Below are positions 3,466-13,439 of a DNA stretch of 64,000 bases, in pieces. Under the pieces are notes generated by a model that did no database searches, was not told where the DNA came from, and saw nothing but the letters and a program-made list of their open reading frames with translations. The number at the start of each line of letters is the position of its first letter. Positions within the stretch are counted from its first letter, which is position 1. Origin of the DNA: Dongia deserti (GTDB lineage: Bacteria > Pseudomonadota > Alphaproteobacteria > Dongiales > Dongiaceae); NCBI RefSeq assembly GCF_003574735.1, contig NZ_QORW01000024.1, positions 1 through 64,000 on the forward strand, given 5' to 3'. Made by a program: the position numbers and the translations under genes.

Positions 3466-4392
3466 CTAATATTCCAGCTGCCGCGGCCGCGCAATTTCGG
3501 AAAGTTTCGCCTCGATGGCAGATTTTTGCGGCAGGCTGGTCTGCGCGCCGCGGGTCAGGCAGGACAAACCGCCCGCGACGGAGGCCCGGTGCAGCGCCTC
3601 GGGCAGTTCCGCCCCGGAGACGAGCGCGGCCGCAAAGGCGCCCACGAACGCATCGCCGGCTGCGGTCGTGTCGATCGGTGAAATATCCATCGCCCCAACC
3701 TGCCAGGACAGTTTCGGCTCGAACGCCAGGACCCCCTCGCCGCCCAGGGTGACGATGCAGGTGATGTCCGCCGCCCCCGCAATCGCAGCGGCAGCCGCGC
3801 GCGCCTCCAGCCGGCCGAGGCCGAGGCCCGCGGCCACTGCCACCGCCTCCGTCTCGTTCACGATGAGCCAGTCGAGTGCGGCGAGAGCGATGCCAGGGAT
3901 CGGGCCGGCCGGCGCGGCGTTGAGCAGGATCCGTGCACCACGGGCGGATGCGCGTGCCACCAGCGCCCAGTTCTGCGCCGGCCAGACTTCCATCTGCATC
4001 AGAATGACGGTCTCGGGCGTCAGCCATTCATCGGGCACTTGGCGCTCCAGCGCCGTCGCATTCGCGCCGGTTGCCAGCACGATCTGGTTCTGGCCGCTGG
4101 AATCCACACAGATGAAGGCGCAGCCGGTTGGGTGCTCATCGCGCTCGACATGGGTGATGTCGACCCCGCCGGCGCGCAACTCCGACAGCGCCACATCTGC
4201 AAAGCCGTCACGGCCCACTCGGCCGACCATCGCCACCTTGGCACCAGCGCGCGCCGCTGCCAGCGCCTGGTTCGCACCCTTGCCGCCCGGCACCATCTGG
4301 TAGCCGGGGCCAAGCACAGTCTCGCCCGGCTTCGGCAGGGTCGTGACAGGCACGGTCAGGTCGACATTGAGCGAGCCGAAGACGACGATCAC
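3466..4392 (-). CDS. rbsK: Ribokinase (PfkB-family sugar kinase)
   Basis: A 308-residue cytosolic kinase of usual family length that phosphorylates ribose or a related sugar with ATP. The N-terminal substrate motif GSLNVD (residues 6-11) is followed by GGKGANQALAAAR near 37-49, both ribokinase hallmarks. The C-terminal PfkB signature DTTAAGDAFVGAF carries the catalytic Asp and anion hole. It is the last gene of the minus-strand operon that begins with a binding-protein gene, 12 bases after the glycosidase gene. In this setting it probably phosphorylates the sugar or polyol released by the glycosidase; ribose itself is not assured. Confidence 0.85.
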   Translation of the reverse strand: MIVVFGSLNVDLTVPVTTLPKPGETVLGPGYQMVPGGKGANQALAAARAGAKVAMVGRVGRDGFADVALSELRAGGVDITHVERDEHPTGCAFICVDSSGQNQIVLATGANATALERQVPDEWLTPETVILMQMEVWPAQNWALVARASARGARILLNAAPAGPIPGIALAALDWLIVNETEAVAVAAGLGLGRLEARAAAAAIAGAADITCIVTLGGEGVLAFEPKLSWQVGAMDISPIDTTAAGDAFVGAFAAALVSGAELPEALHRASVAGGLSCLTRGAQTSLPQKSAIEAKLSEIARPRQLEY

Positions 4393-4404: not shown

Positions 4405-6660
4405 TCAGTTCCGCCAGCGCAAGACGAGATCGCCGCCGCCCTGCTTGGCCGGCACCGCGCATTCAATGAAGCGGCCCGCCGAAGCAACCTCGCACTGCAA
4501 GAGTTGACCATCATAACGGGCTTCGAGCAACCGGTCGATTGAGGCGCGCGGAATGCGCACCCGGCCACCGCCAGTTGTGCGGCACGACAATGCGTCCTCC
4601 GCGATCGCCAGCCGCGACCAGGTGCCCCGCATATCGGTCGCGGCGATCTCGACGTCGTCACGAAGCAACAAGACCCAGCCGTCAGCTGCTTTCACCACGA
4701 TTTCGTGCCCCGCGACGCGCAATGGACCAAGGCTCCACTTGCCGGTCTTGAGGTCGATCTCCCAGCCCGCCCAGGGCGTCAGGCGCGAGACTTCCAGCGT
4801 TGCAATCAGCGGCATCAGGCCGCCCCAGCCATAGAACAGATCGGTGTCCGGCTGATCGTCGGCAAGGCCGCTTTCAGCGTTGAAATTCTCCGGGCACTGA
4901 CCCTTGCGCCACGCCTGCTCGAACAGCCGATAGCTGTCCGCCGCGAGCCGACCCGCGGCTTCATCCTGTCCGGCGCGCCGTAGGCCGAGATACGTGAGCA
5001 GATTGAGCGGCGGCCAGATTCGGCCGCGCCAATAGACGTTGTCACGATAAGCCGGATCGTCGCGCGTCACCGACGGCAGGCGCCAGAAGCCACCGAACTT
5101 GCGCGGATTGTCCAGCCAGTTGAGCAGATGCTGCGTCTGCTCCGGTGTCGCAACGCCGGCCAGCAGCGGATAGAAGCTGGTCGGCGCGATCGAGCGCACG
5201 AAGCGCCCGTCCCACAAACGATTGGCGAACACCTTGCGCTCATCATCCCACAGCCGGTCACGCACCCGGACCGCCAATGCTTCGCCGCGCTGGCGCAAGC
5301 GCTGGGCGGCCGCCGTGTCGCCGCGTTCCTCCGCCCATCGGCTCAGAATTTCCGCATCCAGCACCAGCAAAGAATTCAATCCGACATCGGCGGCGGTCAG
5401 ATTGCCGCTGGCACGATCCAGATCGGTCTCGTCGTGGATCGGCGAATTGTCCATGCTCGATTCATTGCGCGCGCCAAGCTTGGTGCCGCGATAGAGCCCG
5501 TCGCCGACGCCCGGCGAAGTACCCCACCCCATCAGGCCATCGCCGTTGCCGTCGCGATGGCTGAACCACCAATCATGATTGGCTAGCAGCTTCGAATAAG
5601 CGAGATCGACAATGAACGAGTCACCGCTATGCGCGGCGATCATCCAGGTCGCGAGGCTGCCGATCGGCGGCTGCGATCGGTCGACCCAGGAATCGCGCCC
5701 GGTCATCAGGCATGGCAGGTTGCCCGCTGGTTGCGCGTTGCTGAGCAAGGCTTCCAGGTTCTCGACCGCGATGTCGCGGTCGAACAAGGCTGCCATCCAG
5801 GCATGATAAAAGATGTCGTCCAGCCAAAGCCCGAAGCCGCCGAATTTCTGCGCTACCCAGGCGCGCGATAGCGATGTGTAAGGCCGCGTGTTGATGGCGT
5901 CCCACACCGAATTCCAGCCGACGACATCGCGCACTGCGTCGAGCGCATGACCGCCGCGCCCGGTTTGCAGCTTGGGCAGTGTGACGGTTTCTGTAGCAAG
6001 GGCGCGACGAGCTCTATCCGACGCCTCTTTCTGCGTTGTCCCGAAGGCGATGGCGACGGACAAACGCGGCGTCTCTTCGAAATTGTAGCGCAGGCAAGGA
6101 AAGCTGCCGCGCGTCCCCCTGGATGCGAGATGGAAATAGCCCTGCTGTTCGAACTCCGCGCGCAATGCCGCCATATCGGCATGGAAGGTTGCCATCAGCG
6201 CCGGCGCTTGTGCCACCAGCGCGACGGTACCATGTCGCGGGTGAGACGCGAGGAGATCACCGGTCGTCTCATCGTAGGTCCAGTCGATGGGCGGCTCATT
6301 CGGATCAGGCTGCCAACGTAAGCACCAGCACAGCCAGAAGCGCAGACCCCACTCGCCCAGTTTGACGGTGGACCAGGCCGCGCGCAGGGTATCCTGCTCG
6401 GGCCGATCATAGTGCAGATCGAAAGTCGTGCCCGTCTGCGATAAGCGCAGGGCCATCTGCTCGCCGCGCACCGAGCGCGGTCCGTAGCGCACGCCTCCGC
6501 TCTGCGCCGGGAAGTCGGTGAAGGCGTTCTTGCTGGCTGCATAGGCAACAGGCGCGAGTGTAAGGCCGCGCGGCAGATGACTGGCCTGCGCCGGCCATTC
6601 GCTGACCCAGCTGTTCCAGCCGCGGCCGGATTGCTGCAATTTTGTCAGAATATCGGTCAT
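4405..6660 (-). CDS. GH63-like (alpha/alpha)6-barrel glycoside hydrolase
   Basis: A 751-residue protein. The start MTDILTKLQQ at 6660 is preferred over a longer open frame because its ATG overlaps the stop of the upstream gene as ATGA. An N-terminal beta-rich region (~1-190) is followed by a barrel with GWNSVWDAINTRPY, WLDDIFYHAW (candidate acid Asp), NESSMDNSP, DNVYWRGRIWPP and ENFNAESG (candidate base Glu). These are marks of the GH63/mannosylglycerate- and glucosylglycerate-hydrolase-like group. No signal peptide is seen, so it acts in the cytosol on an imported glycoside. The ABC importer and ribokinase share its operon. Exact substrate unknown. Confidence 0.75.
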   Translation of the reverse strand: MTDILTKLQQSGRGWNSWVSEWPAQASHLPRGLTLAPVAYAASKNAFTDFPAQSGGVRYGPRSVRGEQMALRLSQTGTTFDLHYDRPEQDTLRAAWSTVKLGEWGLRFWLCWCLRWQPDPNEPPIDWTYDETTGDLLASHPRHGTVALVAQAPALMATFHADMAALRAEFEQQGYFHLASRGTRGSFPCLRYNFEETPRLSVAIAFGTTQKEASDRARRALATETVTLPKLQTGRGGHALDAVRDVVGWNSVWDAINTRPYTSLSRAWVAQKFGGFGLWLDDIFYHAWMAALFDRDIAVENLEALLSNAQPAGNLPCLMTGRDSWVDRSQPPIGSLATWMIAAHSGDSFIVDLAYSKLLANHDWWFSHRDGNGDGLMGWGTSPGVGDGLYRGTKLGARNESSMDNSPIHDETDLDRASGNLTAADVGLNSLLVLDAEILSRWAEERGDTAAAQRLRQRGEALAVRVRDRLWDDERKVFANRLWDGRFVRSIAPTSFYPLLAGVATPEQTQHLLNWLDNPRKFGGFWRLPSVTRDDPAYRDNVYWRGRIWPPLNLLTYLGLRRAGQDEAAGRLAADSYRLFEQAWRKGQCPENFNAESGLADDQPDTDLFYGWGGLMPLIATLEVSRLTPWAGWEIDLKTGKWSLGPLRVAGHEIVVKAADGWVLLLRDDVEIAATDMRGTWSRLAIAEDALSCRTTGGGRVRIPRASIDRLLEARYDGQLLQCEVASAGRFIECAVPAKQGGGDLVLRWRN

Positions 6661-7240
6661 TGCCAGGCTGCCAGAATCTGATCGACGGTCGCCGCTTCGA
6701 CCTGCTCGTCCAGGCGCTGATACAGGATCTCGAGCGCCTTCATATGGCACGCTTGCGATGAACTGGTCAGCGCATCAGTGGCCAGGATCACTCGCAAACC
6801 AGCCTGCAGCGCATCCATAGCAGTCGACAGCACGCAAACGTCGGTTTCGGCACCGGTGAGGATCACGGTCTGCGCCGCAATGGCAGCGTCTCTTAGCTCC
6901 GCGCACGCCCAGGCCGAATAGACCTGCTTGTCGGCCACCCGCCTCGCCCATGGGCGCAGTTCCTGCACAATCTCGATCTGGGCCGGTTCGAGCCGATCCA
7001 AGGTCACGCTAGACCAGCGTCGATAGAAGCGTTGCCAGGTGCCGTTGGCTTGTGCCGCGCTCTGCGCAGGAATGAAGCGGCTGAAATAAGCGCTATCCGG
7101 CCGCGCCGTCAGCAAGCGCTGGGTCGGCGGAATAATACCCGTCAGCGATTGCGTGCCCCATTCCGGATGGGACCGGAACAGCTCCTGCATATCGACGACA
7201 ATGTGCAATGCCGAGGGAGGGATTGGGCCGAACAGTCGAT

Positions 7241-7244
<4 letters not shown>
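6657..7244 (-). CDS. Isochorismatase-family cysteine hydrolase
   Basis: A 195-residue cytosolic hydrolase with the family triad in order: Asp18 (VVDMQ), Lys106 (ADKQVYSAW) and Cys137 (GAETDVCVLS). The family hydrolyses amides, ureas or vinyl ethers such as nicotinamide, carbamoylsarcosine or isochorismate. No iron or biosynthetic context points to isochorismate. Four-base ATGA overlaps join it to both the ATPase gene before it and the glycosidase gene after it, so the three are translationally coupled. It probably removes an amide-linked part of the imported compound; this is inferred from context. Confidence 0.8.
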
Positions 7245-8304
<1,060 letters not shown>

Positions 8305-8308
<4 letters not shown>

Positions 8309-9084
8309 CGTTCTCCACCGAAGCGATAGAAACGCGCGGTCAACAGCAGCACGCCCATCGAGACCACGATAATGATGGTGGAGATGGCATTGATCTCCGG
8401 CGTGAAGCCCTTGCGAATGGCGCCATAGATTTCCACCGGCAAGGTGGTGACCCCCGCCGGCGCCAAGAAATAGGAGATGACGAACTGGTCGAACGAGACC
8501 GCGAAGGCGAACAGGCCTCCGCCGATCACGCCCGGCGCCAGCAGCGGCGCCGTCACGCGCCGGAAGGTTTGCCACGGGGTGGCACCCAATGTCGCCGCTG
8601 CTTCCTCGACCGCGTGCGGGAAGGTCGCAAGGCGCGCGCCGACCACGACGATTACATAGGGCAAGGACAAAGCGACGTGACCCAGCAGGATCGCGAACAG
8701 GCCGCGCTTGATGTCGATCCAGAAGAAGAACACCAGCATGGCCGTGCCAATCACGAGCCAAGGGATGGCAATTGGCGGGAACAGCAGCAGCTGCATGATC
8801 GTCTTACCGCGGAAGCTGTAGCGCGCGAAGGCGAGCGCCGCCATGGTGCCGAGCGTCGTCGCAATGATGGTGTTCACGATGGCGATGCCGACGCTGTGGA
8901 TGCCAGCATCGATCAGCTTGGTGTTGCTGGTGAGCGCGCGGTACCACACCGGGTCGAACTCGAACGGCAGCGCATAGAGCGGCGAGGCATTGAAGCCGAG
9001 CACGGCCATCACCACGATCGGCACGTAGAGGAACGCGAGCACCAGCCAGAGATGCGCGGTCAGAAGCGTGGAGCCGAGCTTCAT
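8305..9084 (-). CDS. ABC importer permease, PotC-like
   Basis: A 259-residue inner-membrane protein with about six hydrophobic helices and the binding-protein-dependent permease EAA loop near residues 165-185 (VEEAAATLGATPWQTFRRVTAPL). It resembles PotC/YdcV of polyamine-type importers in length and order. The ATGA overlaps at both ends (with the ATPase gene and with the other permease gene) show tight coupling. Confidence 0.87.
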
Positions 9085-9947
9085 AGCCCCTCCATGCGCT
9101 TGCGGGCCGCCGGATAGAGCGCCAGGCAGATCAGCAGCACCGCGCCGAGCATCAGGAAGGACAACGCCGCGCCGAACGGCCAGTTGGCGGTGACCGTGAA
9201 TTGCTCCTCGACCGCCATGCCAAGGGTGGCACCCTTCGCGCCACCCAGGATGCGCGGTTCCATAAAGGAGCCGACGGCCGGCACGAAGATCAATGCGGAG
9301 CCCGCCAGCACGCCGGGCAGGCTCATCGGAAACACCACGCGGCGGAACAGGGCACCGGAGCGCGCACCCAGGCTGCGCGCCGCTTCGATCACGGAATCAT
9401 CGATCGCCTGCAGCGAGATGTAGCAGGTGAGGATCATGTACGGCAGATAGGAGTGAACCAGGCCGACGACGACCGCGGGATAGGAATAGAGCAAATTCAG
9501 CGCTGGCGCGTCGGGGGCGACCACATGGATCGCCTGATCAGCCAGACCGCCGGGCCGCAGCACCATCGTCCAGGAGAAGGTGCGCACCAATGCGTTGCTC
9601 CAGAACGGCAGCACGACCATCAGGAACATCGCCTCGCGCCAACGCCCCTTGATCACCTTGGCCAGGGCGAGCGCTGCCGGATAGCCGATGATCAGACAGC
9701 AGATCGTCACGACCGCGCCCAGCTCGAGCGACCAGAGCATGAGTTGCTGATAGACCGGCCTCTCGATGAAGGCTGCGTAATGCTTCAGAGTGAGGCTGGC
9801 CGGCTGCGGCACCAGCGGCGATTTGTCGAGGAAGCTGCAATAGAGCATCGCCGACAGCGGCAGGAAGATGGTTACCGTCAGCCACAGATAAGCCGGCCCG
9901 GTCAAAGCCAGGATCGTTCCCCTATTCCGTTGGTCGGCGACGGCCAT
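9081..9947 (-). CDS. ABC importer permease, PotB-like
   Basis: A 288-residue membrane protein starting MAVADQRNRGTILAL, with a hydrophobic first helix (AYLWLTVTIFLPLSAMLYCSF) and about six helices in all. The EAA loop reads VIEAARSLGARSGALFRRVVFPMSLPG. It pairs with the PotC-like protein to form the channel. A hairpin separates it from the binding-protein gene upstream. Confidence 0.87.
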   Translation of the reverse strand: MAVADQRNRGTILALTGPAYLWLTVTIFLPLSAMLYCSFLDKSPLVPQPASLTLKHYAAFIERPVYQQLMLWSLELGAVVTICCLIIGYPAALALAKVIKGRWREAMFLMVVLPFWSNALVRTFSWTMVLRPGGLADQAIHVVAPDAPALNLLYSYPAVVVGLVHSYLPYMILTCYISLQAIDDSVIEAARSLGARSGALFRRVVFPMSLPGVLAGSALIFVPAVGSFMEPRILGGAKGATLGMAVEEQFTVTANWPFGAALSFLMLGAVLLICLALYPAARKRMEGL

Positions 9948-10040: not shown

Positions 10041-11141
10041 CTACTTTGCGAACTCCGTCTTCACCTCGGTCCACAGGTCGGAGTAGGTCTGGCGTTCGTC
10101 GTCGCTGAGTGGCGCCATGAATTGCAAGCGCTTGATCGCCGCCTGGTCACTGTGGATCTGCCGCCCCACATCGTCCGCCGGCAATTGCTCGTTCGCCTTC
10201 GTATTGGCGGAGGCCGGCGCGCCGACCGTAGTTGCCCACTCTACGTAGAAGGTCGGGTCGACCATGTAATTGATGAACTTGTGCGCGCCCTCGATGTTGG
10301 GCGCGTTCGCCGCAACGGCGAGTCCGTCGAACCAACCGATGCCGCCTTCCTTCGGCACCATGTAGCCGACGGGCAGCTTGAAGTTGGTCTTGGACCTTGC
10401 GGCCGAGCCGCTCCAATAGACGGAGACGTCGAACGTGCCGGATTGGAACAACTTGTTCCACTCGTCCTCCGACGACCACAGGGTCGCAATCTGCGGCTTC
10501 AGGCCCAGCAGCTTCGCCTTCACCTTGTCCAGGTCTTTCGGGTGGTTCATGTCCTGGCCGGTCGCGATTGCGCCGTAGGACACCGCCTCGATCGCATCGT
10601 CGCGCACCGAGACACGCTTAGCGAACTTCGGGTCCCACAGCACCTCGACCGACTCCGGCGCGGGCTTCACCTTTTCCGTGTTGTAGGCAATCGCCGTCAT
10701 GCCCCACACCCAGGACACGCCATAGACCTTGCCGTCCTTGCTGAGCAGCGCGGAATCGCGCAGCGACGGATTGAGGTCGTCGAAATGCGAGATCTGCGCG
10801 GTGTCGACCGCCTGGATCAACCCTTCGCCTGAGGCGATGCCGTTCCAGGCGGAGTTGGTCAGGACGACGTCATAGGCGCCCGGATTGGTGCGCAGCTTGG
10901 TGATCATCTCCGGTTCGGAGTTGAAGTAGTCGTGCACCACCTCGACGCCGGTCGCTTTCTTGAAGGCCTCGACCGCCCATGCCTCATCCGTGCCATAGCC
11001 CTGCCAGTTCAGCACCGTGATCTTGCCCGCCGCGCTCAGGATGCGCGGCGCTCCGATCACACCCGCGGCCGCTCCAAGACCGATGGCACCGGCCCCGGCG
11101 ACAAAGCGCCGGCGGGTGATCCGTGAATTCGACTTAGACAT
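10041..11141 (-). CDS. ABC importer substrate-binding protein, PotD-like, Tat-exported
   Basis: A 366-residue periplasmic binding protein. The start at 11141 is chosen because a strong ribosome site (GGAGGGA) precedes it. The N-terminus has a twin-arginine signal (SRITRRRFVAGAG), an Ala/Gly-rich helix and a mature start near KITVLNWQGYG. The LNWQGYGTDE motif and the body fit the SBP_bac_8 group, which binds spermidine, putrescine, opines or similar amines. It is the first gene of a seven-gene operon and delivers the substrate to the PotB/C/A-like complex. The ligand is unknown; an amino-sugar or glycosylated amine would suit the downstream enzymes. Confidence 0.82.
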   Translation of the reverse strand: MSKSNSRITRRRFVAGAGAIGLGAAAGVIGAPRILSAAGKITVLNWQGYGTDEAWAVEAFKKATGVEVVHDYFNSEPEMITKLRTNPGAYDVVLTNSAWNGIASGEGLIQAVDTAQISHFDDLNPSLRDSALLSKDGKVYGVSWVWGMTAIAYNTEKVKPAPESVEVLWDPKFAKRVSVRDDAIEAVSYGAIATGQDMNHPKDLDKVKAKLLGLKPQIATLWSSEDEWNKLFQSGTFDVSVYWSGSAARSKTNFKLPVGYMVPKEGGIGWFDGLAVAANAPNIEGAHKFINYMVDPTFYVEWATTVGAPASANTKANEQLPADDVGRQIHSDQAAIKRLQFMAPLSDDERQTYSDLWTEVKTEFAK

Positions 11142-11242
11142 CAGGCTCCCTCCATGTAACGGCCCTTTGGCGGGCCGATTGATTGCTCCCAGACACTGCC
11201 AGCGCCATCCCCAGCGCGACCGAACGGGCCCACCAGCCGGAG

Positions 11243-11264
11243 GATCGTTCGTATACGAACGATC
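11243..11264. promoter_or_regulatory. 22-bp perfect palindrome, likely repressor operator
   Basis: GATCGTTCGTATACGAACGATC is a perfect 22-bp palindrome about 100 bases upstream of the binding-protein start, just downstream of a TTGACT -35-like box. Its core contains the C-GT-AT-AC-G arrangement known for GntR/FCD-family operators. No GntR-family gene is present in the window, so the regulator is elsewhere. Confidence 0.65.
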
Positions 11265-11268
11265 TAGC

Positions 11269-11297
11269 CATTCTGCACCACCCGCGGGCAGAGTCAA
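11269..11297 (-). promoter_or_regulatory. Candidate promoter of the seven-gene uptake operon
   Basis: TTGACT (11292-11297) on the minus strand is followed after 17 bases by AGAATG (11269-11274). The -35 box is good and the -10 box poor. The palindrome begins about 5 bases downstream, where a bound repressor would block transcription. Confidence 0.4.
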
Positions 11298-11455
11298 CGC
11301 TCCCGCGGTTCGGATCAACGCCGCTGTCGTGGTGAGAGAAGTCCGCCGCGCCCGCCACCGCAAGTCAAGTCTGCGTCAGGCTTCCTCTTTCTTCGACTCT
11401 TGACTTGTCGGTCAGGAAGCTCCGCTATTCCCGGACCTTTGGATTGCTAGTCAGC

Positions 11456-12691
11456 ATGGTCGAGCGAAGCAGATCGAGCCAACTGTCCGGACCTTTGGTC
11501 CCGCGCACTGCCTTTCCGCTCCTGATGGCGCGCGACATCGCCTATCTCGACAGCGCCGCCAGCGCACAGAAGCCCAAGGTTGTGCTGGATCGGATGCGGC
11601 AGTTCTACGAGACCAGCTACGCCAACATCCATCGCGCGGTCTATCCGCTGAGCGAGGCAGCGACGGAAGTCTATGAAAGCGCCCGCACGCGCGTTGCCAG
11701 GTTCCTCAAGGCGCCATCTTCGGAGAGCATCGTCTTCACGCAGAATGCCACCGAGGCCATCAATCTCATTGCCCATTCCTTCGGTGGACCGCGGCTGAAG
11801 CAAGGCGATCGGATTCTGGTCACAATGCTGGAGCACCACGCCAATATCGTGCCCTGGCAGCTGCTGCGCGACCGGCTCGGGCTCGAACTGCTGGTCGCGC
11901 CGATCGATGGCGCCGGCAATCTCGATCTGGAGGCCATGGATCGCCAGCTGGCGCAGGGGCCGAAGCTGGTCGCCGTCACGGCGGCCAGCAATGCGCTTGG
12001 CACCCGCACGCCGATCAAGGATGTGGTCGCCGGCGCACATCGCGTCGGAGCAGCCGTGATGGTCGACGCCGCGCAGGCCGCCCCGCACGGCGGGATCGAC
12101 GCCATCGATTGGGATTGCGACTTCCTGGTCTTCACCGGGCACAAACTGTACGGCCCCGACGGCATTGGTGTGCTCTATGGCAAGCCGGAGCTGCTGGCCT
12201 CCATGCCGCCGTGGCAGGGCGGCGGCGACATGATCCGCACCGTCAGCTTCGCACATACCGAGTTCGCCGACCCGCCGCAGCGTTTCGAAGCGGGCACGCC
12301 GCCCATTGGCCCTGCGGTGGGCCTGGCGACAGCGATCGACTTTATCGAAGCCGTGGGGTGGGATCGGGTTGAAGCGCATGACAAGGCTCTGACGGGCTAC
12401 GCCTTGGAGCGGTTGCAGGACATACCCGGCATCCGCCTTATCGGCGCGCCACAGGAGCGGATCGGGATCGTGTCCTTCACGCTGGATGGCGTGCATCCGC
12501 ACGATGTGGGCTCGCTGCTGGGCGAGCGCGGGGTCTGCGTACGCACGGGCCATCACTGCGCGCAGCCGTTGATGGATCATCTCGGGCTGCCTGGCACCAT
12601 TCGCGCCTCCTTTGGTGTTCACAATGATGCGGCCGATATAGACCGGCTGGCGGATGCGCTGGTGGCGGCGCGGCAAATCCTCGCACGCTGA
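11456..12691 (+). CDS. sufS: Cysteine desulfurase, SufS/CsdA type
   Basis: A 411-residue PLP enzyme that takes sulfur from cysteine and yields alanine. The start at MVERSRSSQ gives the usual ~25 residues before IAYLDSAASAQKP; an upstream TTG at 11405 would only add a poor leader. Markers are the THNATEA-like FTQNATEA, the PLP lysine in FTGHKLYGPDGIG, and the catalytic cysteine in RTGHHCAQP near the C-terminus, placing it in group II (SufS). No sufBCDE genes lie nearby, so it stands apart from a SUF operon. It may supply another sulfur acceptor, as CsdA does. Confidence 0.85.
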   Translation: MVERSRSSQLSGPLVPRTAFPLLMARDIAYLDSAASAQKPKVVLDRMRQFYETSYANIHRAVYPLSEAATEVYESARTRVARFLKAPSSESIVFTQNATEAINLIAHSFGGPRLKQGDRILVTMLEHHANIVPWQLLRDRLGLELLVAPIDGAGNLDLEAMDRQLAQGPKLVAVTAASNALGTRTPIKDVVAGAHRVGAAVMVDAAQAAPHGGIDAIDWDCDFLVFTGHKLYGPDGIGVLYGKPELLASMPPWQGGGDMIRTVSFAHTEFADPPQRFEAGTPPIGPAVGLATAIDFIEAVGWDRVEAHDKALTGYALERLQDIPGIRLIGAPQERIGIVSFTLDGVHPHDVGSLLGERGVCVRTGHHCAQPLMDHLGLPGTIRASFGVHNDAADIDRLADALVAARQILAR

Positions 12692-12764: not shown

Positions 12765-13439
12765 ATGATTGTTTGCATACCGGACGTCCTGACGGCGGAC
12801 GAAATCAAGAAGCTCCGCGCCGAGGCAGCCCTTCTGCCCTTCGTCCCGGGCCTCGAGACGGCCGGCGGCCGGGCGCGGCGCGTCAAGAACAACGAACAGG
12901 TCTCTCAGAAGGCGGAAGAGCGGAAGCCGCTGCACGAGATCGTCGTCGGCGCGCTCATGCGCAGCAAGGAATTCCAGCGCGCTGCCTTGCCGAAGCGCGT
13001 CCGCCCACCGCTCATCAGCCGCTATCGCGAGGGCATGGCGTATGGCAAGCACGTCGACAATGCGCTGATGGGCCCCAAGATGGGGCGCGAACGGTCCGAC
13101 GTTTCCGTCACCGTCTTCATCAGCGACATCGACGAATATGACGGCGGCGAGCTCGTCATCCACAGCGCGTTCGGCGTCCAGGAAGTAAAGCTGCCAAGCG
13201 GTTCTGCGGTGGCCTACCCCTCCTCCAGCCTGCACGAGGTCGCCGCAGTCACGCGCGGCGAACGGCTGGTGGCGGTGACCTGGGCGCAATCCTATGTGCG
13301 CGACGAAAGTCAGCGCGAAATCCTGGCGCACCTCGCGCAGGTGAAGGACAAGATGAACGACGCCATGCCCGATGCGGAGGAGACGGATCTCGTCCACCAC
13401 GCCTACACCAACCTGCTGCGCATGTGGGCGGAGACCTAG
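12765..13439 (+). CDS. piuC: Fe(II)/2-oxoglutarate dioxygenase, PKHD-type (PiuC/YbiX)
   Basis: A 224-residue cytosolic hydroxylase of usual length. The iron ligands are visible as His-x-Asp in YGKHVDNALM and the distal His in SSSLHEVAAV. The 2-oxoglutarate Arg follows in TRGERLVAVTWAQS, and the C-terminus carries the helical tail typical of YbiX (DLVHHAYTNLLRMW). In other bacteria piuC is linked to TonB siderophore receptors and Fur control. Here no receptor gene is adjacent; the upstream neighbour is the sufS-like gene and the next gene converges. Confidence 0.88.
   Translation: MIVCIPDVLTADEIKKLRAEAALLPFVPGLETAGGRARRVKNNEQVSQKAEERKPLHEIVVGALMRSKEFQRAALPKRVRPPLISRYREGMAYGKHVDNALMGPKMGRERSDVSVTVFISDIDEYDGGELVIHSAFGVQEVKLPSGSAVAYPSSSLHEVAAVTRGERLVAVTWAQSYVRDESQREILAHLAQVKDKMNDAMPDAEETDLVHHAYTNLLRMWAET

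Follow-up and report, generated by a model that had tools for sequence, protein, structure and literature searches.

The stretch of DNA analysed here, referred to as the window, comprises 64,000 nt of Dongia deserti (assembly GCF_003574735.1, contig NZ_QORW01000024.1, positions 1-64,000 of the forward strand). It contains an operon of seven tightly packed genes, all on the minus strand and in the order potD-potB-potC-potA-ISC-GH-RbsK, with a long palindrome in its promoter region. The features of the locus are the following:

3466-4392, minus strand: PfkB-family ribokinase-like kinase (RbsK)
4405-6660, minus strand: MGH1/trehalase-like glycoside hydrolase (GH)
6657-7244, minus strand: isochorismatase-family cysteine hydrolase (ISC)
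7241-8308, minus strand: potA-like ABC ATPase, its start inferred from the relative in locus L018
8305-9084, minus strand: potC-like ABC permease
9081-9947, minus strand: potB-like ABC permease
10041-11141, minus strand: potD-like gene at the head of the operon, for a solute-binding protein of 366 aa
11243-11264, no strand: perfect 22-bp palindrome GATCGTTCGTATACGAACGATC, predicted operator for a NicR/BpsR-type MarR repressor
11270-11275, minus strand: -10-like element CAGAAT, with a spacer of 16 bp to the -35 element
11292-11297, minus strand: -35 element TTGACT, the same hexamer in the same place as at the ndhF promoter of the same genome
11405-12691, plus strand: divergent sufS-like cysteine desulfurase gene, neighbour of the operon

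The best NCBIfam and PDB matches of the window Pot proteins are polyamine systems, and the ATPase scores 382.8 bits against the PotA subfamily model TIGR01187, whose cut-off is 355.6 bits. The scores against the PotABCD equivalog models all lie below their cut-offs (144.8 against 582 bits for PotD, 191.5 against 348 for PotB, 206.8 against 326 for PotC and 363.3 against 482 for PotA), as does that of the solute-binding protein against the PotF equivalog (91.9 against 636 bits). The residues W34, Y37, D168, E171, W229, W255 and D257 of E. coli PotD, which we take to be ligand contacts of that protein together with E36, are kept in the PotD-like protein, and E36 is replaced by Gly; with this set of residues, a cationic ligand would fit better than plain nicotinate. 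The ISC, GH and RbsK genes follow potDBCA in all 13 relatives' family loci that hold the whole operon. Between potD and sufS, a terminator-like stem-loop with a T-rich tail lies on the plus strand at 11367-11383 of the window. In G001, a relative of the same genus that has no operator before potD, the gene after sufS is present in two tandem copies (L088 2959-4461), 80% and 69% identical to window positions 12765-13436.

The palindrome is present exactly where the earlier note had placed it, and its description as lying just after a good -35 box is also accurate: on the minus strand, TTGACT (11297-11292) is followed after 16 bp by CAGAAT (11275-11270), and the palindrome starts 5 bp downstream of the latter. 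The expected transcription start is therefore covered by the predicted operator. The promoter is sigma-70-like, and region 11130-11500 contains one promoter-like site against a mean of 0.0 in shuffled sequences; the potD-like ATG at 11141 lies about 100 bp downstream of the palindrome. No longer perfect palindrome occurs in the window; the next six measure 16 bp, with no palindrome of 18 or 20 bp in between. A first-order Markov model of the window (200 simulations) gives an expectation of 0.07 perfect palindromes of at least 22 bp per 64 kb, so that the length, which had been held to be improbable by chance, is only moderately so and is suggestive rather than decisive. A chance origin is disfavoured more strongly by the recurrence of the palindrome in the genome and by its conservation at the same promoter across the family. 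A search of all 64 kb of the window for the core 12-mer pattern gave one occurrence, in agreement with the single copy noticed earlier.

In the complete genome of 6.13 Mb, a search allowing up to three mismatches returned the window copy, one further exact copy and one copy with three mismatches, and the reversed control returned none. The second exact copy (C12:66731-66752) lies before ndhF, and the third (C49:296347-296368) lies 77 bp before the Liv-type solute-binding protein gene of an ABC operon. An occurrence at many unrelated sites, which the earlier note had named as evidence against its reading, was not found, as the three genomic sites all precede transport or nicotinate operons. With the 14-bp core and two mismatches, ten places were found in the genome and 20 with the reversed control; three of the ten are the exact cores, and the other seven are therefore treated as noise. 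The 22-mer had no matches in viral contigs.

The gene order on contig C12 is pncA | ndhF-ndhL-hnr-U280-AAS1-marR-AAS2-ena, with the operator between pncA and ndhF. The pncA gene encodes a nicotinamidase (212.7 bits against the NF008623 cut-off of 174), ndhF and ndhL encode the FAD subunit and a fused Fe-S/Mo subunit of a molybdenum hydroxylase, AAS1 and AAS2 encode PF06684 proteins with the marR gene between them, and ena encodes an amidohydrolase. The hnr product is about 62-66% identical to proteins in plasmid records; among the 20 matches listed, 11 are named 6-hydroxynicotinate reductase, three are hypothetical and six carry no annotation there, and searches for NCBIfam and Pfam matches of hnr returned none. 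For the two ndh proteins, all scores among the NCBIfam models listed lie below cut-off, and the designations nicotinate dehydrogenase-like for ndh and enamidase-like for ena rest on gene context and on the THON pathway as published in the available text of PMC3511419 and PMC9304392. A xanthine/purine regulon, considered for the C12 dehydrogenase, was dropped since hnr, ena and the nicotinamidase gene share its cluster. In relatives, the Liv operon is divergent from ndhF and adjoins it (loci L179, L180, L183, L184, L187, L190 and L191), and for this reason it is also counted with the nicotinate system; a putative nicotinate ABC transporter is likewise reported in the cluster of strain SG-6C and relatives, in the available part of PMC3511419. 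About 4 kb past ena, C12 holds a second Pot-like ABC operon (L174 4981-8995), at which the genome-wide search with up to three mismatches found no operator.

The candidate repressor is encoded within the nicotinate operon itself:

C12:59778-60230: marR gene, candidate repressor

This gene was linked to the palindrome through its relatives. The 16-bp core was found in 39 stretches of named genomes, and nine of these, most of them under the name Bosea, have the start of a MarR gene close to the core (L002, L003, L012, L017, L020, L022, L023, L036 and L040). In the Bosea stretch L012 the end of the core and the marR ATG are 10 bp apart, an arrangement typical of autoregulation. Other linked stretches are ndhF promoters (L006, L028, L039), a potD promoter (L018) and a Bradyrhizobium site by hnr (L008); L006 and L018 come from the same genome as G003, L028 from that of G001 and L039 from that of G002, so that these four repeat relatives used in the comparison below. 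Within the length of the remaining 25 stretches, the core could not be linked to hnr, to potD or to a Bosea-type MarR; weak MarR matches occur at L009 and L030 and weak molybdenum-hydroxylase matches at L010. At L009 (position 5466, an Enterobacterales MAG) the core sits in a 36-bp palindrome and a 33% identical MarR match extends from about 160 bp on; at L030 (position 5561, Saccharopolyspora rosea) a 30% identical MarR match extends from about 50 bp past the core. The same core may be used by MarR proteins of other clades. In the alphaproteobacterial MAG nDJH14bin10 the 16-bp core occurs on four contigs (L005 6308, L024 5311, L026 7495 and L027 1018), one copy within a 34-bp palindrome and all of them away from the gene set used here; perhaps these are a dispersed repeat with a look-alike core.

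Compared with the Dongia genome, the Bosea MarR has one close relative, 45% identical over C12:59784-60209, and four further ones at 27-31%; the close relative is the marR of the nicotinate operon. Its product scores above cut-off with two Pfam models, MarR_2 (at 44 bits) and MarR (at 42 bits), and its closest PDB relatives are 2NNN and BpsR (6PCP, E 2.9e-26, 139 residues). According to the available text of PMC6837509, BpsR holds 6-hydroxynicotinate through Tyr15, His23, Arg26 and His32. The corresponding residues of the Dongia protein are Tyr, Tyr, Arg and His, and over 17 aligned sequences Y15 and R26 are kept in all 17, H32 in 16 and H23 in one.

The distribution of the site was examined in 16 relatives of the family and in G050, of another family, in regions around potD and, where present, the MarR gene. 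A weight matrix was built from eight known sites, and the best three sites of each of 39 loci were compared with a threshold of 15.9. Sites scoring at least 15.9 lie before potD in 10 of 17 family genomes (D. deserti included), before ndhF (13), in nine liv loci and before marR (two); two further ones lie elsewhere, in L181 and L186, both chosen because the motif was present. The best other score was 15.5, in L089 of G050. Absence of the palindrome from this operon in relatives was the other outcome that the earlier note had named as evidence against its reading; the palindrome is conserved at the operon in two of three congeners and in seven of seven genomes of genus g6, and is missing there in all six other family genomes. 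The seven family genomes that have no potD site are G001 (a congener, whose assembly is 68% complete), G004, G005, G006, G007, G009 and G010. The repressor gene is present in G001, G005, G006, G009 and G010 all the same. In G004 the best MarR match reaches 35% identity and in G007 there is none; neither carries the motif at its pot operon, and in G007 it is absent from the nicotinate operon too. G004 has the pot operon and no hnr match, and the operon may thus serve a function outside the nicotinate pathway.

The core TTYGYRYRCRAA had 28 exact matches in 32 loci of relatives (565,823 bases; L181, L186, L192 and L193, selected for the motif or the liv operon, were left out), and all 28 fall in potD, ndhF, liv or marR promoter windows. 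These promoter windows cover 16,637 bases, which corresponds to a binomial p of 1e-43; the 32 loci were chosen by PotD or MarR and are not independent, and the sites were already known when the pattern was composed, so that this value measures specificity only and not discovery. The 12-mer pattern and the weight matrices are derived from sites in these same loci, with shuffle controls and a lack of off-target matches as safeguards. Between genera, the core flanks of both half-sites vary in parallel: in g1 they read TTCG....CGAA at potD, ndhF and liv (with one TTTG half at the G002 liv site), and in g6 they read TTTG....CAAA at all three. The position relative to the promoter is also regular, with -35 and -10 elements called as best matches to consensus. 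At all seven potD and ndhF sites of g1 the operator lies 4-5 bp below a -10-like box, and in g6 the operator is overlapped by the best -10-like hexamer at seven of seven ndhF and three of seven potD sites. The liv promoters vary, and in g1 they depart from the -35/-10 arrangement seen at potD and ndhF.

Outside the family, 29 MarR loci of the class were scored, two of which (L205, L206) come from the family that had supplied sites for the matrix. Nine reached scores higher than 14 and higher than those of all 20 shuffles; in eight the site is found either at the start of marR or in the interval between it and dehydrogenase genes, and in the ninth, L217, the site lies just past marR and no dehydrogenase was recognised. 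The other 20 stayed below this criterion within about 1.5 kb, among them G008 and G011, which have sites further off; for these 20 loci the explanation is either a site further away than the 1.5-kb flanks reach or a different operator. An operator-like site of G008 (L181 8728) lies between genes for a large pyridine-nucleotide-disulfide oxidoreductase-like protein and a molybdopterin oxidoreductase.

Pot-type genes are also found among nicotinate genes or close to them. The nicotinate operon of G009 has, after ena, a potD relative of 74% identity with no potBCA nearby, and in G007 the genes ndhF-ndhL-hnr-U280-AAS1-AAS2 lie about 3.7 kb past RbsK on the same strand. From 67 plasmid records with a PotD relative, nine regions (L233, L234 and L236-L242) were picked for varied genera and annotation, L233 being selected for its hnr gene. 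In seven of them a MarR gene, 40-50% identical to the Bosea or the Dongia MarR, follows potDBCA-ISC, and one or two candidate operators precede potD, the best site scoring above 20 of 20 shuffles; L233 and L239 do not have this order. The plasmids with this order belong to Rhizobium, Pararhizobium, Shinella, Phyllobacterium and Mesorhizobium. A glycosidase gene adjoins potD in seven of the nine regions, potD being preceded there by a candidate operator, and a kinase gene is present in two.

In Mesorhizobium sp. AR07, potDBCA-ISC lies within a nic-like cluster of genes for a monooxygenase, an alpha/beta hydrolase, a racemase, an amidohydrolase and a 'leucyl aminopeptidase', followed by 2Fe-2S and molybdopterin subunits, which can be read from their annotation as NicC, D, E, F, X, A and B of an aerobic nic cluster. 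A ribokinase-like stretch between ISC and marR on the same plasmid (L236 11440-12332), absent from the listed annotation, gives two overlapping partial matches, which looks like a split between reading frames. A 29-kb region of Pleomorphomonas has its three top-scoring sites before hnr, before nicR and before a potD-glycosidase pair with no potBCA, two of the three scoring below the best of 20 shuffles. In Rhizobium sp. TH2 (L239 6160-12737) the order is GntR, ADP-ribosylglycohydrolase, PfkB kinase and PotDBCA, with a 55% identical PotD, and neither a MarR gene nor the operator was found in the region. The operator further occurs before ferredoxin-NADP reductase-like genes (L235 1688, L189 11250 and L186 8995), with 15 bp between it and the annotated start in Neorhizobium L235, a distance of about 240 bp in L186, and a greater distance in L189 than in L235. 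Such an operator-linked reductase would fit a role as electron supply for 6-hydroxynicotinate reductase.

The earlier note had described the core as GntR/FCD-like and had assigned the operon to a distant regulator of that family. Its centre, GTATAC, is a fair look-alike, which we take to resemble GntR/FCD operators, and the best candidate regulator does lie elsewhere in the genome, on C12; it is the family that has to be replaced, as the motif tracks the MarR gene and the MarR family fits better. A GntR gene at C12:74967 is indeed found 8.2 kb from the second copy, with an 87% identical relative about 8 kb from the copy in G003, and a GntR gene precedes the PotD-family operon of Rhizobium sp. 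TH2. Nevertheless, the link between the palindrome and a GntR gene that had been expected in the genome did not appear: the core is absent from all 30 GntR loci searched in the Dongia genome, C12:74967 included (the best-scoring 30 of 43 matches, about 3 kb each, 94,960 bases). The C12 GntR has no match within 16 kb on that side in G002, and none in 36 loci of relatives, several of which reach less than 8 kb on that side. With its presence close to the site in one congener (G003) but not in the other (G002), and with its own locus free of the motif, it appears as an occasional neighbour in the genus. Since TH2 also has no operator and the motif follows the MarR gene across genomes, binding of the palindrome by a GntR/FCD regulator is highly improbable. 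The chance that the palindrome is an RNA hairpin, a repeat-family element or an accident is next to negligible. The rate of 0.07 per window and the four contigs of an unrelated MAG with the 16-bp core could be quoted in its favour, but the three genomic copies at up to three mismatches all precede co-functional operons, the half-sites change in pairs across genera, and the place relative to the -35 and -10 elements is fixed at seven of seven potD and ndhF sites in g1.

A different matter is what the transporter carries under the same repressor. Polyamines or another amine, co-regulated for instance as a nitrogen source, would agree with the largely kept PotD-type binding residues, with the polyamine systems found as best NCBIfam and PDB matches and with the retention of the operon in G004, where hnr has no match. 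The PotD and PotF equivalog cut-offs are, however, missed widely, pot genes lie within or beside nicotinate genes in G009, Pleomorphomonas (potD with no potBCA), G007 and Mesorhizobium, and polyamine uptake would leave the glycosidase and the kinase unexplained. An amine transporter of this kind is considered unlikely.

Taken together, the palindrome is very probably the operator of a NicR/BpsR-type MarR repressor, and the window operon very probably belongs to a nicotinate regulon. The genome comparison supports the site, its recurrence, its coupling to MarR and nicotinate genes and the layout of the potD and ndhF promoters, and the position of the operator relative to the -10 element fits repression by exclusion of RNA polymerase. 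DNA binding, repression, inducer and transported substrate are predictions, with repression and release by 6-hydroxynicotinate carried over from BpsR by analogy. In the proposed mechanism, when nicotinate is absent a repressor dimer would sit on the operator just downstream of the -10 element and block RNA polymerase at three operons: potDBCA-ISC-GH-RbsK, the nicotinate operon including the repressor's own gene, and the Liv-type ABC operon. When nicotinate is hydroxylated, the resulting 6-hydroxynicotinate would bind the repressor and release it, and uptake and breakdown would thus rise together. As a member of this proposed regulon, the window operon would encode a transporter and accessory hydrolases for nicotinate or a nicotinate-containing compound.

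A bolder reading, offered tentatively and as a possibility with the balance against it, is that the operon serves the import and deglycosylation of nicotinate or nicotinamide N-glycosides, candidates being the plant nicotinate N-glucoside or N-pentosides and nicotinate or nicotinamide riboside. The Pot-type binding protein would recognise the pyridinium cation, the glycosidase would take off the sugar, the kinase would phosphorylate the released pentose, and the cysteine hydrolase would remove an amide or carbamoyl group; the freed nicotinate, after hydroxylation, would lift the repressor from the operon itself. A pyridinium N-glycoside would suit the PotD-like pocket, the glycosidase and the kinase alike. 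The conserved ISC-GH-RbsK set (13 of 13 loci), the glycosidase genes by potD on plasmids and the ADP-ribosylglycohydrolase and PfkB kinase of TH2 speak for it, and the lack of the kinase in most plasmid regions speaks against it; to our knowledge, no enzyme of the ISC/GH/RbsK set has a known N-glycosidase function. Plants do make nicotinate N-glycosides, including an N-pentoside and an N-rhamnoside, according to the available text of PMC6776627.

A candidate operator for alphaproteobacterial NicR/BpsR-type repressors (core TTYGYRYRCRAA, extended GATCGTTCGTATACGAACGATC) would make their regulons readable from genomes. It would also bring into vitamin B3 metabolism a transporter whose annotation would otherwise be that of a polyamine importer, and the joining of glycosidases and a ribokinase-like enzyme to nicotinate use would suggest a link between plant nicotinate conjugates and soil bacteria. 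Among the papers listed by a literature search with the palindrome string, none has such a regulator in its title; PMC10269826 contains none of five operator terms, and PMC7057948 yielded nothing on NicR. Neither this operator nor a Pot-type nicotinate operon was found described in open-licence PMC papers, a set that leaves the main BpsR/NicR regulation papers outside, and both may perhaps be unpublished.

Among known systems, the closest is BpsR of Bordetella, a MarR protein (6PCO, 6PCP) that represses nicotinate-degradation genes and is released from DNA by 6-hydroxynicotinate, as stated in the available text of PMC6837509. The Dongia MarR resembles it over 139 aligned residues and keeps Tyr15, Arg26 and His32. 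It differs in having Tyr at the place of His23, the Dongia pathway is reductive (hnr, ena) rather than of the nicC/nicE kind, and the proposed regulon includes two ABC transporters. NicR of Pseudomonas putida is cited in the same part of PMC6837509 as a MarR-type repressor of nic genes, and the likeness to it is one of family and role by that description. For the nicotinate cluster of Azorhizobium, Bradyrhizobium and strain SG-6C, the available text of PMC3511419 describes neither an operator nor a Pot-type operon with glycosidase and kinase, and the term MarR occurs zero times in its main text. E. coli PotABCD and PotFGHI share the ABC architecture of the window operon, which differs from them in its linkage to nicotinate genes and in ending with a hydrolase, a glycosidase and a kinase. 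The nicotine cluster of Agrobacterium tumefaciens S33 holds putrescine/spermidine-type ABC genes induced on nicotine and thus also combines Pot-annotated ABC genes with pyridine degradation; it differs in that the substrate is nicotine and not nicotinate, the regulators named are TetR and neither a glycosidase nor a kinase is mentioned, as far as the available text of PMC5500553 goes. Measured against these systems, what is unexpected is the content of the transporter operon in the proposed nicotinate regulon.
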